Below are positions 21,855 through 57,036 of a stretch of 64,000 nucleotides of DNA, piece by piece. Location of the stretch: positions 1 through 64,000 of the forward strand of contig NZ_FXTO01000001.1 in NCBI RefSeq assembly GCF_900182725.1, read 5' to 3'. The notes beneath the pieces were generated by a model that saw only the letters and a list, made by a program, of their open reading frames with translations, was not told the DNA's origin and did not search any database. Source of the stretch: Thalassovita litoralis (GTDB taxonomy: Bacteria > Pseudomonadota > Alphaproteobacteria > Rhodobacterales > Rhodobacteraceae). Within the stretch, counting starts at the first letter, position 1, and every line of letters begins with the position of its first letter. Made by a program: the position numbers and the translations under genes.

Positions 21855-23771
21855 ATGAGCCGTGAAACCGACGCCCTGACAATGGCCGGTCTGAACCTGA
21901 TTCAGCAGGCGCTTTCGATTTATGACAGCAATCTGAATCTGGTGGTTTGTAACCGCCGTTTCCGTGAAATGTTCGACCTGCCAGATACGCTTGTGACGCC
22001 CGGCGCCCGGTTTGAAGACACCATTCGCTTCATGGCGGAACGCGGGGAATACGGAAGAATGGAGGACGTTGAAACCGGCGTTACCCTGCGTGTGGCGCAG
22101 GCCCGCACCTTTACCCCGCATTATCTGGAACGCATTCGCCCCAACGGGCAACGTATATCGGTCGAGGGAAATCCCCTGCCCCAAGGCGGCTGGGTTGCCG
22201 TGTACACCGACATCACCCGCACCAAACAGCAAGAGGAACTGCTGCGCGCCCGATCCGAGGAATTGACGGACAAGGTACTGGCCTATGCCGAAGAGCTGGC
22301 CACCACCAACCGCAAGCTGGAATCCACCATCGCGGCGCTGGAAGAAACCAAGCGCATCCTGACGGAAACAGAGGCCCGCACCCGTCTGACAACGGAAATG
22401 ATGCCTGCCCATATCGCTCATGTCGGGCCGGATCGGTGTTATACTTTTTCCAACCGGCGCCTGTCATCCGTCATGCCCGGCCGCCCCGCCGATATTCTGG
22501 GCCAACCGATTGATCAGGTACTTGGCCCCGCGTTCAAAGCCATTGAACCGCATCTGGAACAGGCGTTTGCCGGGCAGCCTTCGGCCTTTGAATTCACGGA
22601 CGAGGACAGTTCCCGTCGCATCCGCGCCGCCTTTACCCCCGATCTGGCCAAGGATGGCAGCGTGGCCGGGGTCTATATCATGTCGATGGACATCACCGAA
22701 GAAACACAGGCCCGCGCCGCCTTGCAACAGACCCGCCGCCGGGAAATGGCCGCACAACTGACCAGCGGGATGGCGCATGATTTTTCAAATCTTCTGACCA
22801 TCATTCTGGGCAGCCAATCGCGCCTGCAAAAAATCGACCTGCCCGATGCCGCCCGTGAACTGGTCAACGCCACCCTGTCCGCAGCCCATCGGGGCGGATC
22901 GCTGCTGAACCGGCTGGCGGACATCACGGGCGCACGGGACTGGAATCCGCAACCCGCCAGCCTGTCCGCCCTACTGAACGATTTGAAAACGCTGGCGTTC
23001 CCTGCCCTGCCGGAAACCATCCGGTTGAACATTAACAACCTGATGAAAGAAGACATGCTGATACTGGACACCGGCATGTTACAGGATTCACTGCTGAACC
23101 TGATCCTGAATGCCCGCGATGCCTGTGAAGGCACTGGAAAAATCACCATCACAGCATCCCCAATTCAGGGGCTTTGGCTGGAAATCACGGTACGCGACAG
23201 CGGCCCCGGATTTTCCGATTCCGCATTGGATCACGCGCTGGAACCCTTTTTTACCACAAAGGGCGGCGAAGGGTCAGGGCTGGGGCTGGCAATGGTTTAT
23301 GACTACACCAAGCTGGCCGGGGGGCGTGTCCGGCTAAGCAATGCCGAAGATGGCGGCGGGCAGGTCACGCTGCGCCTGCCGCTGCGCCGCCCTGCGCAAA
23401 TGGCCGCCGAACCCGGTTTGGTCCTGCTGGTCGAAGACAGCCCGGACCTGCGCATTCGCATCCGTGAAATGCTGACCGATATGGGCGAAACCGTCATCGA
23501 AGCCGCCAGCGCCGAAGAAGCCTTGGTTCTGTGTTCCGAGCTGCCAGAGATTTCGCGCATCCTGTCGGACATTTCGCTTGCAGGTGATATGACCGGCGTG
23601 GATTTCCTGCGTACCCTTCCAAACGGGCACCCGCCCTGCTACCTGATGACCTCGCTGCCACCTGAACACGCGCTGCACCGGGCGGGGGCCGAACTGGCCC
23701 CGGTTCTGCGCAAACCGTTTTCAACCGCGCAGCTTTCTGCCCTGTTTCTGATGACGGCCCCGATACAATGA
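21855..23771 (+). CDS. Hybrid sensor histidine kinase (PAS-PAS-HisKA-HATPase-REC)
   Basis: 638 aa, no transmembrane segment, so a soluble sensor. N-terminal PAS_7-like domain (about 8-125), a coiled-coil linker, a second PAS domain (about 180-290), HisKA with phospho-acceptor His308 (GMAHDFSNLL), HATPase with N-box (LNLILNARDA), G1 (DSGPGF) and G2 (GSGLGLAM), and a C-terminal receiver whose Asp572 (LSDISL) is the likely phosphate acceptor. Its stop overlaps the regulator start by 4 nt. Divergent from the ligase/transporter operon, hence probably its sensor; the ligand is unknown. Confidence 0.9.
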   Translation: MSRETDALTMAGLNLIQQALSIYDSNLNLVVCNRRFREMFDLPDTLVTPGARFEDTIRFMAERGEYGRMEDVETGVTLRVAQARTFTPHYLERIRPNGQRISVEGNPLPQGGWVAVYTDITRTKQQEELLRARSEELTDKVLAYAEELATTNRKLESTIAALEETKRILTETEARTRLTTEMMPAHIAHVGPDRCYTFSNRRLSSVMPGRPADILGQPIDQVLGPAFKAIEPHLEQAFAGQPSAFEFTDEDSSRRIRAAFTPDLAKDGSVAGVYIMSMDITEETQARAALQQTRRREMAAQLTSGMAHDFSNLLTIILGSQSRLQKIDLPDAARELVNATLSAAHRGGSLLNRLADITGARDWNPQPASLSALLNDLKTLAFPALPETIRLNINNLMKEDMLILDTGMLQDSLLNLILNARDACEGTGKITITASPIQGLWLEITVRDSGPGFSDSALDHALEPFFTTKGGEGSGLGLAMVYDYTKLAGGRVRLSNAEDGGGQVTLRLPLRRPAQMAAEPGLVLLVEDSPDLRIRIREMLTDMGETVIEAASAEEALVLCSELPEISRILSDISLAGDMTGVDFLRTLPNGHPPCYLMTSLPPEHALHRAGAELAPVLRKPFSTAQLSALFLMTAPIQ

Positions 23772-54700: not shown

Positions 54701-55084
54701 AAAGTGTTCCTGTCGATCAAGGACGCCGACAAGACCGCCGCGATGGCCGAAGCCGCGCAAACCCTGATCGAACTGGGCTTTGAACTGGTGGCGACCCGTG
54801 GCACGGCAACTTGGTTGAAAGAGAACGATCTGGCCTGTGAATTGGTAAACAAGGTCTACGAAGGCCGCCCGAATATCGTGGACATGTTGAAAGATGGCGC
54901 AATCAAGCTGGTCCTGAACACCACCGAAGGCGCGCAATCGGTACAGGACAGCCGCGCCATCCGTTCGGTCGCGCTGTATGACAAGATCCCGTATTTCACC
55001 ACCGCAGCGGGCGCACAGGCCGCCGCGCAAGCGATGAAAGCCCGCGCTCAGGGCGATTTCGGGGTCATGGCGCTGCAAGGCTAA
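51758..55084 (+). CDS. carB: Carbamoyl-phosphate synthase, large subunit
   Basis: 1108 aa from the ATG at 51758. Two tandem ATP-grasp halves: first [21 protein letters not shown] (Rossmann start) and [10 protein letters not shown], second [21 protein letters not shown] and the C-terminal MGS-like allosteric domain (about 970-1108). Makes carbamoyl phosphate for pyrimidine and arginine synthesis. carA is not in the window. The first residue of the conserved N-terminus ([11 protein letters not shown]) fixes the start; upstream in-frame codons are rejected. Confidence 0.97.
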
Positions 55085-55506
55085 TCGCCAAGTGATAAAA
55101 AATCCCGGCCAGTCCATGCCTGTGCGCTTGGGCTGGCCGTTTTCATTTTTGGCGAATGCCCTTGGGTGCGAACGCGTACAGAATCGGAACAGCTTTGCCC
55201 GCCTTACCGCGAATCATGGGGCAGGCCGAAAAGCATTTAAATTCACTTAAAAAGTGATCCAATAATCAAACATCTCCTAAAAATTGCAATTCCGACTTCA
55301 CAAACCACCCAATCGGCATTTTTCCGCAACGCAGCGAAGCTTCTCTTCCGCAGGCAAAAAGATAGATTATAGTCTGTTTTCAATCATTTAGGATGCAGGC
55401 AAACACCCACACCACCACAGACTGTAAGTATTAACAGGCTCCGAATGCGATGCTTGTCACACATTTGACACGACAAACGATCAAAAGATGAACTATACTT
55501 TTGTAT
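55085..55506. other. AT-rich intergenic region after carB
   Basis: About 420 bp without a supported gene, markedly more AT-rich than its neighbours at 55240-55500. Contains an inverted repeat TCACTT-AAA-AAGTGA (55243-55257) and a promoter-like arrangement near the end: TTGACA at 55465-55470 and TATACT at 55494-55499, just ahead of the structured RNA. Confidence 0.5.
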
Positions 55507-55695
55507 ATGGGGCCGTACATCGACGTCAGATCCCCAACCGACGTCGATGGGGAGGGTTAAATTTAACCCGCTCTGGCCCCTGACAGGTGAAGTAACGTTG
55601 TCCTATGTCCCATACTATATGGGCAACGCTGAATTTCATAAGTCATTTCAGACCAGAACGGGGTCCTCCGCTATGCGGGGGCCCCTTATTTCTTG
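55507..55695 (+). ncRNA. Candidate structured small RNA
   Basis: The predicted RNA starts about 8-10 nt after a TATACT -10 element (55494-55499). GGGGCC (55509-55514) pairs with GGCCCC (55575-55580), enclosing CATCGACGTC/GACGTCGATG (55518-55527 with 55540-55549, 10 bp) and the 16-nt palindrome GGGTTAAATTTAACCC (55554-55569). Then a CCCATA-CTA-TATGGG hairpin (about 55616-55630), and finally a GC-rich hairpin ending in TTATTTCTT (about 55657-55695), a plus-strand intrinsic terminator. No coding frame is supported. Unknown family. Confidence 0.6.
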
Positions 55696-55697
55696 GA
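55655..55697 (+). terminator. Intrinsic terminator closing the structured RNA
   Basis: GGGGTCCTCCGC pairs with GCGGGGGCCCC (one bulged T), followed by TTATTTCTT. The minus strand lacks a T run, so it terminates plus-strand transcription, where no protein gene exists. Confidence 0.75.
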
Positions 55698-56573
55698 GGG
55701 CGTGGTCTGTGCTGACAGGCTTTGCATACGGGTTCCCGCCCCATCCATTTCGATCAGGAAATCAATCGTATCGGGATCGAACTGCGGATCAGGCAGCAAC
55801 CCGGTACACATCGCCAAAGCTGCAATTTCCGCCCTATTTCTCAGTTCAGCCTTGACCATCAGGCTGTGCATCCTCTGGCGCAGGGCAGAAATGGAAATGC
55901 CCAACTCAGCCGCAATCTGTTTGTCCTGCAACCCACGCCCGACCATCTGCAACAATTCGCGCTGCTTCTCGGTGATCTCGTTCCGTTCGTAAAATTCGTC
56001 GGTGAAATGGGTCATATAACGTTGATGCGCCACCATTGCGGCGACATTCAGCGTCCAGCCATGTTCTTGTAAAATAGCCATCATATCGGCCCGTGAATGA
56101 TCCCCCGAAAAGGTGATCAAGGCCGCCTGTGGGGGCGCATGAAGCCGCAACGGCACCGATAAACCCGCCCGAATTCCGCGCTCGGCAGCCATGCGCAGCA
56201 CATCACGCCGCCGCTGGGGCAGATCATGATAGTCCTCGATAAACTCTTCCCCGATAACGATCGGCGTCAAATGATGCAGGGCATGGCTGCGAAAGTAAGA
56301 CCACTTCTGAATATCGGGTTCTTTATTCAGTTCATTCAACCAAGTGGAATCGTATGACGTGCGAATAAACTGTGTCCGCCGCCAGTCCGAATAGCTGCTG
56401 GCCGCGATGAAGTCGATAAAGGGCAGCCCAACGCTGCGCCCCAATTCGACCAGCCGTTCCCACACTTGAACCGACCGCTCTGTTGTCTCCATATCCAGCA
56501 GAAAGCGGTGCAGCAATTTGGGCGTATAGGTTTCTGCCCCCAGCAAGTTCCTGTCTGAACGCTGTTGGGGCAT
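55686..56573 (-). CDS. LuxR-type transcriptional regulator (solo)
   Basis: 295 aa. N-terminal autoinducer-binding-like domain (about 25-190; IDFIAASSYSDWRRTQFIRTSYDSTWL contains the Tyr/Asp/Trp region), C-terminal LuxR HTH (about 205-260: ITEKQRELLQMVGRGLQDKQIAAELGISISALRQRMHSLMVKAELRNRAEIAALA). No luxI gene was found in the window, so it is a solo or responds to a signal made elsewhere. Starts 4 nt after the upstream partner gene. Confidence 0.85.
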   Translation of the reverse strand: MPQQRSDRNLLGAETYTPKLLHRFLLDMETTERSVQVWERLVELGRSVGLPFIDFIAASSYSDWRRTQFIRTSYDSTWLNELNKEPDIQKWSYFRSHALHHLTPIVIGEEFIEDYHDLPQRRRDVLRMAAERGIRAGLSVPLRLHAPPQAALITFSGDHSRADMMAILQEHGWTLNVAAMVAHQRYMTHFTDEFYERNEITEKQRELLQMVGRGLQDKQIAAELGISISALRQRMHSLMVKAELRNRAEIAALAMCTGLLPDPQFDPDTIDFLIEMDGAGTRMQSLSAQTTPSKK

Positions 56574-56577
56574 GGGG

Positions 56578-57036
56578 TCAGGTCGCTTCTTCTTCCAGGT
56601 GCAATTTCATTTCGATCAGCACCTTCTGTAATTCCAGCGTTTCCTTCAGCAAGCGCTTGGCCTCGTTGATGGTTATAATACCGTCCTGAATTGACTGGTT
56701 ATATTCCGCCATCAACATCGCAAAGCGGTGGCTTAACGCGATCACATCCGTATTAACCCCGCCCTTTTCGCCGGGATCATTCCGCCCCTCGTTATAGGAC
56801 AAGGAAATCCCTTTCAGATCGGCCAGCGCGCTGGTCACGTGCGGAAAGGACGCCACCTTTTCCAAGGCCGCCACAGCATCCAGCGGCATGAAGCGATCCG
56901 CATGTTCCGGGTTATCCGAATAGTAGCGCCCCAATGTGGCCTTGGACTTGCCTGTGATCTCACATGCCGCCTCGATCCCGACATCTTTCACCAATGCTTC
57001 GGTGTGTTTCTTCAGATATCCGGCGATACCAGCCAT
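56578..57036 (-). CDS. Phage-CII-like small regulatory protein
   Basis: 152 aa. Helical, with an N-terminal region that looks like a DNA-binding helix-turn-helix (EAACEITGKSKATLGRYYSDN) and a C-terminal helical oligomerisation part (INEAKRLLKETLELQKVLIEMKLHLEEE). It resembles phage regulatory proteins of the CII type, but I am not certain. Directly upstream of the LuxR solo and very likely co-transcribed with it. Confidence 0.6.
   Translation of the reverse strand: MAGIAGYLKKHTEALVKDVGIEAACEITGKSKATLGRYYSDNPEHADRFMPLDAVAALEKVASFPHVTSALADLKGISLSYNEGRNDPGEKGGVNTDVIALSHRFAMLMAEYNQSIQDGIITINEAKRLLKETLELQKVLIEMKLHLEEEAT

Follow-up and report, generated by a model that had tools for sequence, protein, structure and literature searches.

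A putative, apparently uncatalogued small RNA next to a LuxR-family receptor gene in marine roseobacters

The window (the whole 64,000-nucleotide stretch of Thalassovita DNA that was analysed) contains a spacer between carB and a LuxR-family gene. An earlier note on this DNA had proposed, as the simplest reading, a small regulatory RNA of about 185 nt. Covariation among relatives and a match of a structural model to the window, both set out below, support that proposal. The plus strand of the spacer looks like a conserved small RNA gene, and a structured plus-strand regulatory RNA of ~185 nt is the supported and best reading of positions 55507-55695.

Layout and predicted fold of the candidate RNA

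The putative small RNA gene is placed on the plus strand at 55507-55695, with a start and an end that we infer and a resulting length of about 185-189 nt; model R2 (described below) puts the RNA at 55510-55694. The TATACT -10 element that had been noticed earlier is present at 55494-55499 and follows a -35-like ACGACA (55470-55475) at a spacing of 18 bp, so that the two would form a sigma-70-like promoter at 55470-55499 on the plus strand. Promoter elements of the form (A/C)GACA and TAT(A/C)CT are retained among Thalassovita relatives. At the other end, a predicted plus-strand intrinsic terminator (55660-55695; stem 55660-55685, tail TTATTTCTTG) extends into the luxR stop codon; of the terminator with a T run claimed in the earlier note, the stem is there, whereas the T run in the tail is interrupted rather than pure. 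A promoter of its own together with an intrinsic terminator, the hallmark of a trans-acting small RNA, is thus found in the sequence. Matches to the promoter and terminator consensus are not above those in shuffled sequence (1 versus 1.3, and 2 versus 1.5, respectively), and the weight of both elements therefore rests on their conservation. The EcfG-type promoter pattern, GGAAC-N15-18-CGTT, is matched at two remote sites of the window (near 22977 and 32870) and not at this promoter. Separately, in two Thalassovita relatives (L004 and L006) the -10 element lies within the inverted repeat ACCCTA-TACTT-TAGGGT, possibly an operator for a second regulator.

The predicted fold consists of several hairpins. 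Its closing helix pairs the G-rich 5′ end (55509-55515) with 55574-55580, in agreement with the pairing to 55575-55580 described previously, and encloses the two repeats that had been reported with it. The first is a 10-bp perfect inverted repeat (55518-55527/55540-55549) forming hairpin 1 (55518-55549, plus strand); the second is the 16-nt palindrome GGGTTAAATTTAACCC (55554-55569, plus strand), with a 6-bp stem and a 4-nt loop, which is absent from the six Thalassovita relatives that were folded. Loop 1 exposes UCCCC (55531-55535, plus strand; mean unpaired probability 0.99), within AUCCCCAAC in the window and mostly UUCCCCAG in Shimia, and this motif is a candidate pairing seed. The further hairpin claimed 3′ of the palindrome corresponds to a second hairpin region (55596-55628, plus strand), with CCCAUACU in the predicted loop, comparable to UGUCCC in the loop of Shimia hairpin 2. 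Next comes a linker, TTTCATAAGTCATTTCAGA (55634-55652, plus strand), which is retained more or less closely in relatives and occurs at one single place in the genome itself when up to two mismatches are allowed. It may be an Hfq site or a second pairing site, and the U-rich linker and terminator tail would be compatible with Hfq binding.

The 189 nt at 55507-55695 fold with an energy of -82.8 kcal/mol, whereas shuffled versions average -58.0 (z = -5.9) and none of 200 is equally good, so the check by folding software that the earlier note had suggested came out in its favour. The reverse strand is equally stable (z = -6.0). The fold alone therefore gives no direction, which comes from the promoter, the T-tail and the relatives.

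The earlier statement that no protein gene runs in the plus direction holds with a qualification, in that a mechanical ORF of 102 aa does exist (55547-55855), yet traverses the terminator into antisense luxR. This same-strand ORF, along with a 21-codon frame starting with TTG at nucleotide 12 in six of 14 Shimia-type RNAs, would fit a riboswitch-like leader or a small mRNA. We regard that reading as extremely improbable: the terminator faces a convergent gene, so that there is no downstream gene for a leader to control, and no ORF of at least 15 codons is common to all 14 Shimia-type RNAs.

Known families offered no identity. Rfam 15 returned no match to the window RNA at the gathering threshold or at E ≤1, and none to the Shimia RNA L092 at E ≤1. 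A 6S RNA was considered and rejected, the one 6S-like match of the genome (RF00013; 41.7 bits, cut-off 46.4) being on another contig (C2) and the present fold being a multi-hairpin one, unlike the single long hairpin with its central bubble that marks 6S RNA. Among the open-access papers listed on LuxR or quorum sensing and small RNAs in roseobacters, Rhodobacteraceae or Thalassovita, PMC9426580 included, none describes the RNA as judged by its title and an excerpt of its abstract. It looks like an uncatalogued small RNA, situated next to a LuxR-family receptor gene in marine roseobacters.

Conservation and covariation among relatives

Nucleotide searches with the RNA recovered little. In 101 genomes, blastn found only the window itself and a weak 46-nt match in one genome of another family, with nothing in eight other Thalassovita genomes, and a DNA search of plasmids was likewise empty. 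Since direct DNA search was fruitless, synteny via luxR was used instead. Located through the LuxR protein, a carB-luxR spacer with the RNA is present in seven of nine Thalassovita genomes, the window included; the relatives of the LuxR protein include T. taeanensis, T. gelatinovora, T. aquimarina, T. autumnalis and Thalassobius vesicularis. All seven spacers have the promoter, an early hairpin with unpaired CCCCAA, the late linker and, next to the stop codon of luxR, a terminator. The linker is closer to TTTCATAAGTCATTTYAGA in L003, L005, L009 and L010 and less close in L004, L006 and L007, and the fold z of the seven RNAs ranges from -1.7 to -6.6. At E 1e-20, luxR has no match in the remaining two genomes (G003 and G007), in which carB is followed by other sequence, in G003 by the 152-aa gene described below (by eye); the RNA was sought in their carB spacers, and G003 is also without a match to R1, a model built from the seven Thalassovita sequences. 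Outside its training set, R1 scored 58.3 bits (E 2.8e-13) on T. taeanensis L067; in 15 more loci the 3′ part was matched weakly, with 9.4 to 23.4 bits.

Named genomes were scanned with a LuxR alignment, which gave 40 loci. Of these, 37 are related over most of the protein (five of them, L066, L068, L069, L072 and L090, come from genomes already counted in the Thalassovita set); L103-L105, short HTH matches in unrelated proteins, were dropped. In most loci outside Thalassovita, similar elements recur in the sequence that faces the end of luxR, and the RNA ends beside the luxR end in most relatives read. Of the carB-LuxR setting given in the earlier note, carB is the neighbour in Thalassovita, but across genera that role falls to luxR, and carB was rejected as the linked gene. 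Outside Thalassovita, carB is a neighbour in one metagenome contig only (L074), and in 29 loci of other genera (taken from 30 among the matches listed in 61 genomes) neither the promoter nor the linker pattern turned up within 1500 nt downstream of carB. An exception to adjacency with luxR is L083 (5858-6629), where about 770 nt of other sequence separates luxR from the RNA, and where the RNA and its boxes are intact beyond.

The earlier note had looked to compensatory changes in homologous intergenic regions for a decision on the RNA, and on the Shimia-type relatives these turned out in favour of it. Alignment A4, of 14 Shimia-type RNAs, has a consensus of 53 pairs that comprises a closing helix, hairpins 1-3, then a small hairpin whose loop is U-rich, and the terminator. 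The loops read (U/A)CCCCAG in hairpin 1, UGUCCC or AGUCCC in hairpin 2 and ACCC in hairpin 3, and CCCCAG is invariant in all 14 RNAs. In this alignment 95.3% of cells are paired, and both sides have changed in 25 of the 53 pairs, counts in which the cells are not independent events. The covariation score is 0.336 versus 0.187 shuffled; none of 500 shuffles reaches it, and slid controls stay at or below 0.101. Covariation includes the helices (1-3) corresponding to hairpin 1 of the window. The compensatory changes were thus found on the 14 Shimia-type RNAs, and the window is linked to them by model R2, which was built from these 14 RNAs alone and nevertheless recovers the window RNA from first to last position (55510-55694; 24.7 bits, E 1e-6 in 337 kb). 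On L083 it scores 129.8 bits, and at E ≤1 it matches 13 of 27 sources given, three of them training loci. On this evidence, the link of the putative window RNA to the Shimia type is clear; for several other genera, the proposed link rests on position, boxes and reading by eye, and RNA starts and ends outside the Shimia-type set were placed by eye.

The covariation and the locus L083 bear on a possible action in cis, according to which the two convergent transcripts share 3′-terminal sequence and the RNA, as an antisense or 3′-end partner, adjusts luxR mRNA or is itself sponged by read-through from luxR, with feedback on the receptor as the outcome. The RNA ends at the luxR stop codon, a position kept in most loci read. 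A pattern scan of the minus strand at 55000-56300 detected no terminator-like site; with no obvious T-rich terminator after its stop codon, the luxR transcript may run antisense through the RNA gene. A perfect antisense partner would, however, have no need of conserved single-stranded CCCC loops and covarying stems, and the RNA of L083 lies ~770 nt past the luxR stop codon and is still conserved (129.8 bits, as above). We consider action in cis unlikely.

Of 37 RNAs (36 loci plus the window, L088 being left out as its RNA start was not set), 34 fold with z < -2 (median -3.69), against 11 of 29 control spacers after carB (median -1.15). The controls begin at the carB stop codon and thus include any carB terminator, which makes them fairly strict. 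As these controls also fold somewhat better than shuffles, and as convergent genes often share terminators, the locus could in principle be a strong bidirectional terminator with a structured spacer and no RNA function. This has very little probability in our judgement: the promoter is conserved with boxes at fixed distance, the loops are conserved, the covariation falls in helices 1-3, far from the terminator, and the RNA is intact though apart from luxR in L083.

Family-wide scans with R1 (149 genomes) and R2 (198 genomes) yielded nothing convincing elsewhere. These scans were weak, with 12-15 candidates scored per genome and R2 missing even the genome of the window, so that absence of the RNA elsewhere is not proved by them. 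Four R2 scan matches were dismissed once their sequence had been read and found not to be RNA-like; their 3.1-kb loci have no luxR, carB, 152-aa gene or tdk, and three of the four end in apparently ordinary terminators. Two weak R1 scan matches (L064 and L065) cover the 3′ end of the model only.

A LuxR solo and lux-box-like palindromes

The gene convergent with the RNA (55686-56573, minus strand) encodes a LuxR-family protein with an autoinducer-binding domain (Autoind_bind, PF03472; E 4.3e-9, a modest match) and a GerE domain (PF00196; E 7.8e-7); by sequence, its matches in the PDB, RhlR included, are confined to the HTH region. Directly upstream of luxR is a conserved 152-aa gene (56578-57036, minus strand), without a Pfam match at E 0.001, which precedes luxR in many loci, is also found beside tdk and probably shares an operon with luxR. 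The genome has four PF00765 matches, all on contigs other than that of luxR, and the two of these genes read as luxI each have their own luxR alongside. As no luxI lies beside it and the luxI genes read have partners of their own, the LuxR at 55686-56573 is classed as a solo.

All seven Thalassovita genomes with luxR and the RNA have a LuxI match at E 1e-16 or better. G003 and G007 have neither luxR nor the RNA at this place nor such a LuxI, with one PF00765 match each (1e-6 to 1e-7), which in G003 looks like an OlsB-type acyltransferase. Of 18 genomes in a wider set, 17 belonging to other genera and one being T. taeanensis, none lacks a PF00765 match at 1.5e-9 or better; since roseobacters commonly carry LuxI, this co-occurrence is weak.

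Upstream of the RNA promoter stands a palindrome, CTGTNA-N4-TNACAG, with the recurring consensus ACCTGTCA-(AT-rich)-TGACAGGT. We take it to resemble the lux box of V. fischeri, and a 20-bp CTG...CAG palindrome at a promoter, the mark of a lux-box regulon, is what is found here. The promoter-proximal box of the window, GACTGTAAGTATTAACAGGC (55420-55439, no strand assigned), is a 20-mer that starts 87 nt before the assumed +1 and agrees with ACCTGTNANNNNTNACAGGT at 11 of 14 positions, a value reached by one of 100 shuffles. At the place of the promoter-distal box (55389-55408, no strand assigned), 31 bp upstream of the proximal one, the window has the degenerate TAGGATGCAGGCAAACACCC with fewer than 10 of 14 matches and so retains only one of two boxes; the distal box is clear in some other species, for example in L067, L069, L072 and L090. 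A palindrome-like sequence also occurs at 55451-55470 (TGCTTGTCACACATTTGACA; TGTCACACATTTGACA), exactly 31 bp downstream of the proximal box and overlapping the -35 region, and it corresponds to no conserved block in other promoters.

Across the set, 32 of 37 promoters have a box with at least 10 of 14 matches, with a mean best score of 10.9 versus 8.25 shuffled; no average of 100 shuffled promoter sets exceeds 8.54. In every one of the 10 promoters with two boxes of at least 10 of 14 matches, the spacing is exactly 31 bp, close to three DNA turns. Relative to the assumed start, the boxes usually lie 86-87 and 117-118 nt upstream, displaced by a few bases where the start was set by eye. The column statistics of the box omit L079, L097, L098, L100 and L101, which have no box, and the columns thus lean towards the box; L088 was left out of box scoring because its RNA start was not set, and its box has 20.1 bits by a fuller matrix. 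This fuller matrix, which includes the window box, gives the window site 23.1 bits (next best in 64 kb, 13.1) and finds a box in 32 of 37 luxR loci, L083 being outside the stretch scanned.

A non-circular matrix, built on the 23 boxes found in the Shimia-type set of 14 loci, was run on the window and on 24 other loci. The window site ranks first in 64 kb with 19.7 bits, the next having 9.4. In 20 of the 24 loci (among them L088, where the limits of the RNA were not set) the top-scoring site of the whole stretch is found past the luxR end and upstream of the RNA (11.1 to 24.1 bits). The matrix failed in L097, L098, L100 and L101, the loci with a LuxR of just 45-54% identity. One of 29 controls downstream of carB scores 15.4, apparently within a coding region, and the others score below 9.2. 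By the fuller matrix, 36 of 37 loci are free of sites of at least 10 bits in the 1500-nt stretch upstream of luxR, L079 being the exception with one 10.1-bit site, so the boxes go with the RNA.

These conserved lux-box-like palindromes suggest control of the RNA promoter by LuxR, and the solo is proposed as the activator of the RNA. It could be argued instead that the RNA acts in trans through its C-rich loops, that the boxes are bound by a luxI-paired LuxR or by an unrelated factor, and that luxR is a mere neighbour, given that at least two more luxR-luxI pairs are present in the genome and that luxR-type boxes are alike among family members. Yet ten PF00765 loci (eight LuxI and two OlsB-like) have no site of at least 8.5 bits by the fuller matrix, although the LuxR proteins of the eight LuxI loci would be expected to bind there. 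The RNA, the boxes and this luxR also occur together in most of the 37 luxR loci, luxR and the RNA are both missing at this place in G003 and G007, and box scores are low in the loci with the most divergent versions of this LuxR. Regulation by another factor is thus distinctly unlikely in our estimation.

In the genome as a whole, the strict box pattern occurs at five places versus two for a reversed control; apart from the RNA promoter, three sites are apparently within coding sequence and one is intergenic. The intergenic site (L109 1499-1518; C12:85213-85232) has 10.6 bits by the Shimia matrix. It lies ~60 nt upstream of a SulP-like transporter gene, possibly a second target of LuxR, and for this reason the RNA may not be the only one.

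C-rich loops, possible targets and a candidate switch

A (U/A)CCCC motif is present within the first 50 nt of 30 of the 37 RNAs and mostly unpaired in 29, L070 having it mostly paired; L076, L077, L095, L096, L097, L098 and L101 lack it at this early position. In the metagenome-derived L076 and L077, UUCCCGGUU lies 3′ of luxR and is possibly a variant of the UUCCCCAG loop.

Loops of this kind are known from other alphaproteobacterial RNAs. GsrN of Caulobacter is described as having a cytosine-rich 5′ loop, the best conserved part of the molecule, that binds G-rich mRNA leaders, and GsrN homologs as typically lying near genes of their regulators (PMC5869019). The present RNA resembles it in the exposed C-rich loop near the 5′ end, in its alphaproteobacterial origin and in the putative regulator gene nearby. 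GsrN belongs, however, to the sigma-EcfG general stress response, whereas a sigma-70-like promoter, lux-box-like sites and a LuxR solo are found here; the two are set apart by description rather than by direct sequence comparison. In CcnA, also of Caulobacter, a loop CCCC is reported to pair with GGGG in the 5′ UTRs of ctrA and gcrA (PMC8959179). The CCCC in a loop is shared, but in eight Thalassovita genomes the last 30 nt of the ctrA leader contain no GGGG, and ctrA as a CcnA-like target is unsupported.

A precedent for control of a small RNA by a LuxR-family protein is RhlS of Pseudomonas aeruginosa, described as a 70-nt RNA from the rhlI 5′ UTR whose level depends on LasR, with a Las box at the promoter (PMC6786874). 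It differs from the present case, a stand-alone gene of ~185 nt convergent with a LuxR solo. In the alphaproteobacterium Rhodopseudomonas palustris, an rpaR antisense RNA is reportedly made from the strand opposite a LuxR-family gene; the present RNA, in contrast, meets luxR at the stop codon only and has conserved loops of its own. Rhodobacter sphaeroides provides two further regulatory RNAs of the Rhodobacterales, CcsR, which is said to have C-rich loops, and StsR, described as being under RpoHI/RpoHII control; the present RNA, itself without an Rfam match, is distinguished from both by description and not by direct sequence comparison.

Among possible targets, luxI was considered. The main luxI of five Thalassovita genomes (L111-L115) has a conserved GTAGGGGAA(A)CC just 5′ of the ATG (about locus position 1453-1459, match orientation), and a sixth luxI carries AAGGGGAAGC. 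GGGGA is thus found at the start in six of the eight Thalassovita luxI loci read and is absent from L117 and L120; four more LuxI matches (E 1e-16 to 1e-18) lie outside these eight. GGGGA occurs near the start in eight of 28 luxI loci from 18 other genomes, counting any candidate start, and in one of 60 long ATG ORFs taken from the window, a rough background in which spurious ORFs are counted as well. As an aside, an upstream TTCCCC in L111 and L114 might pair, by eye, with the luxI GTAGGGGAA and hide the ribosome-binding site. The evidence at the luxI start is mixed, which makes feedback of the RNA on luxI translation a lead and not a result.

Computation has established the predicted structure, the cross-genus conservation, the covariation, the linkage and the boxes, and on these we base a model of how the locus may work. 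LuxR would bind to one or both CTGTNA-N4-TNACAG boxes, which lie some 70 to 120 nt before the start of the RNA; from the conservation of the boxes, their position and the linkage, bound LuxR would activate the sigma-70-like promoter. As no luxI stands beside this LuxR, its input is probably an acyl-homoserine lactone produced by neighbours or through a gene elsewhere in the genome. RNA polymerase would then transcribe the RNA and, as the sequence indicates, stop at the terminator beside the luxR stop codon. The stem-loops would present CCC or CCCC in loops 1 and 2 for pairing with G-rich ribosome-binding sites, and such pairing may alter the translation or stability of target mRNAs, in line with the conservation of the loops and the examples of GsrN and CcnA. 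We consider it fairly likely that the RNA is a free-standing, trans-acting molecule of ~185 nt, paired with a convergent LuxR-family receptor, whose C-rich loops act on G-rich ribosome-binding sites. More tentatively, the two may constitute a dedicated receptor-to-RNA switch, in which the main output of the LuxR solo would be this one small RNA with its C-rich anti-ribosome-binding-site loops, possibly with feedback on luxI. That narrower reading is based on the strength of the box at the RNA promoter, 19.7 bits, relative to the 10.6 bits of the next strict-pattern site in the genome.

Acyl-homoserine lactones are in wide use among roseobacters, which to our knowledge carry many LuxR solos with unknown targets. 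If a solo works through one linked RNA, an orphan receptor would gain a concrete and testable output, a chemical signal would be converted into RNA-level control of other genes, and an RNA family absent from Rfam would be added. The stems diverge so fast that blastn fails within the genus while the loops and boxes persist, which would explain why the RNA has gone unnoticed so far. Should the switch exist as proposed, a lactone signal, the cell's own or a neighbour's, would lead to direct post-transcriptional control.
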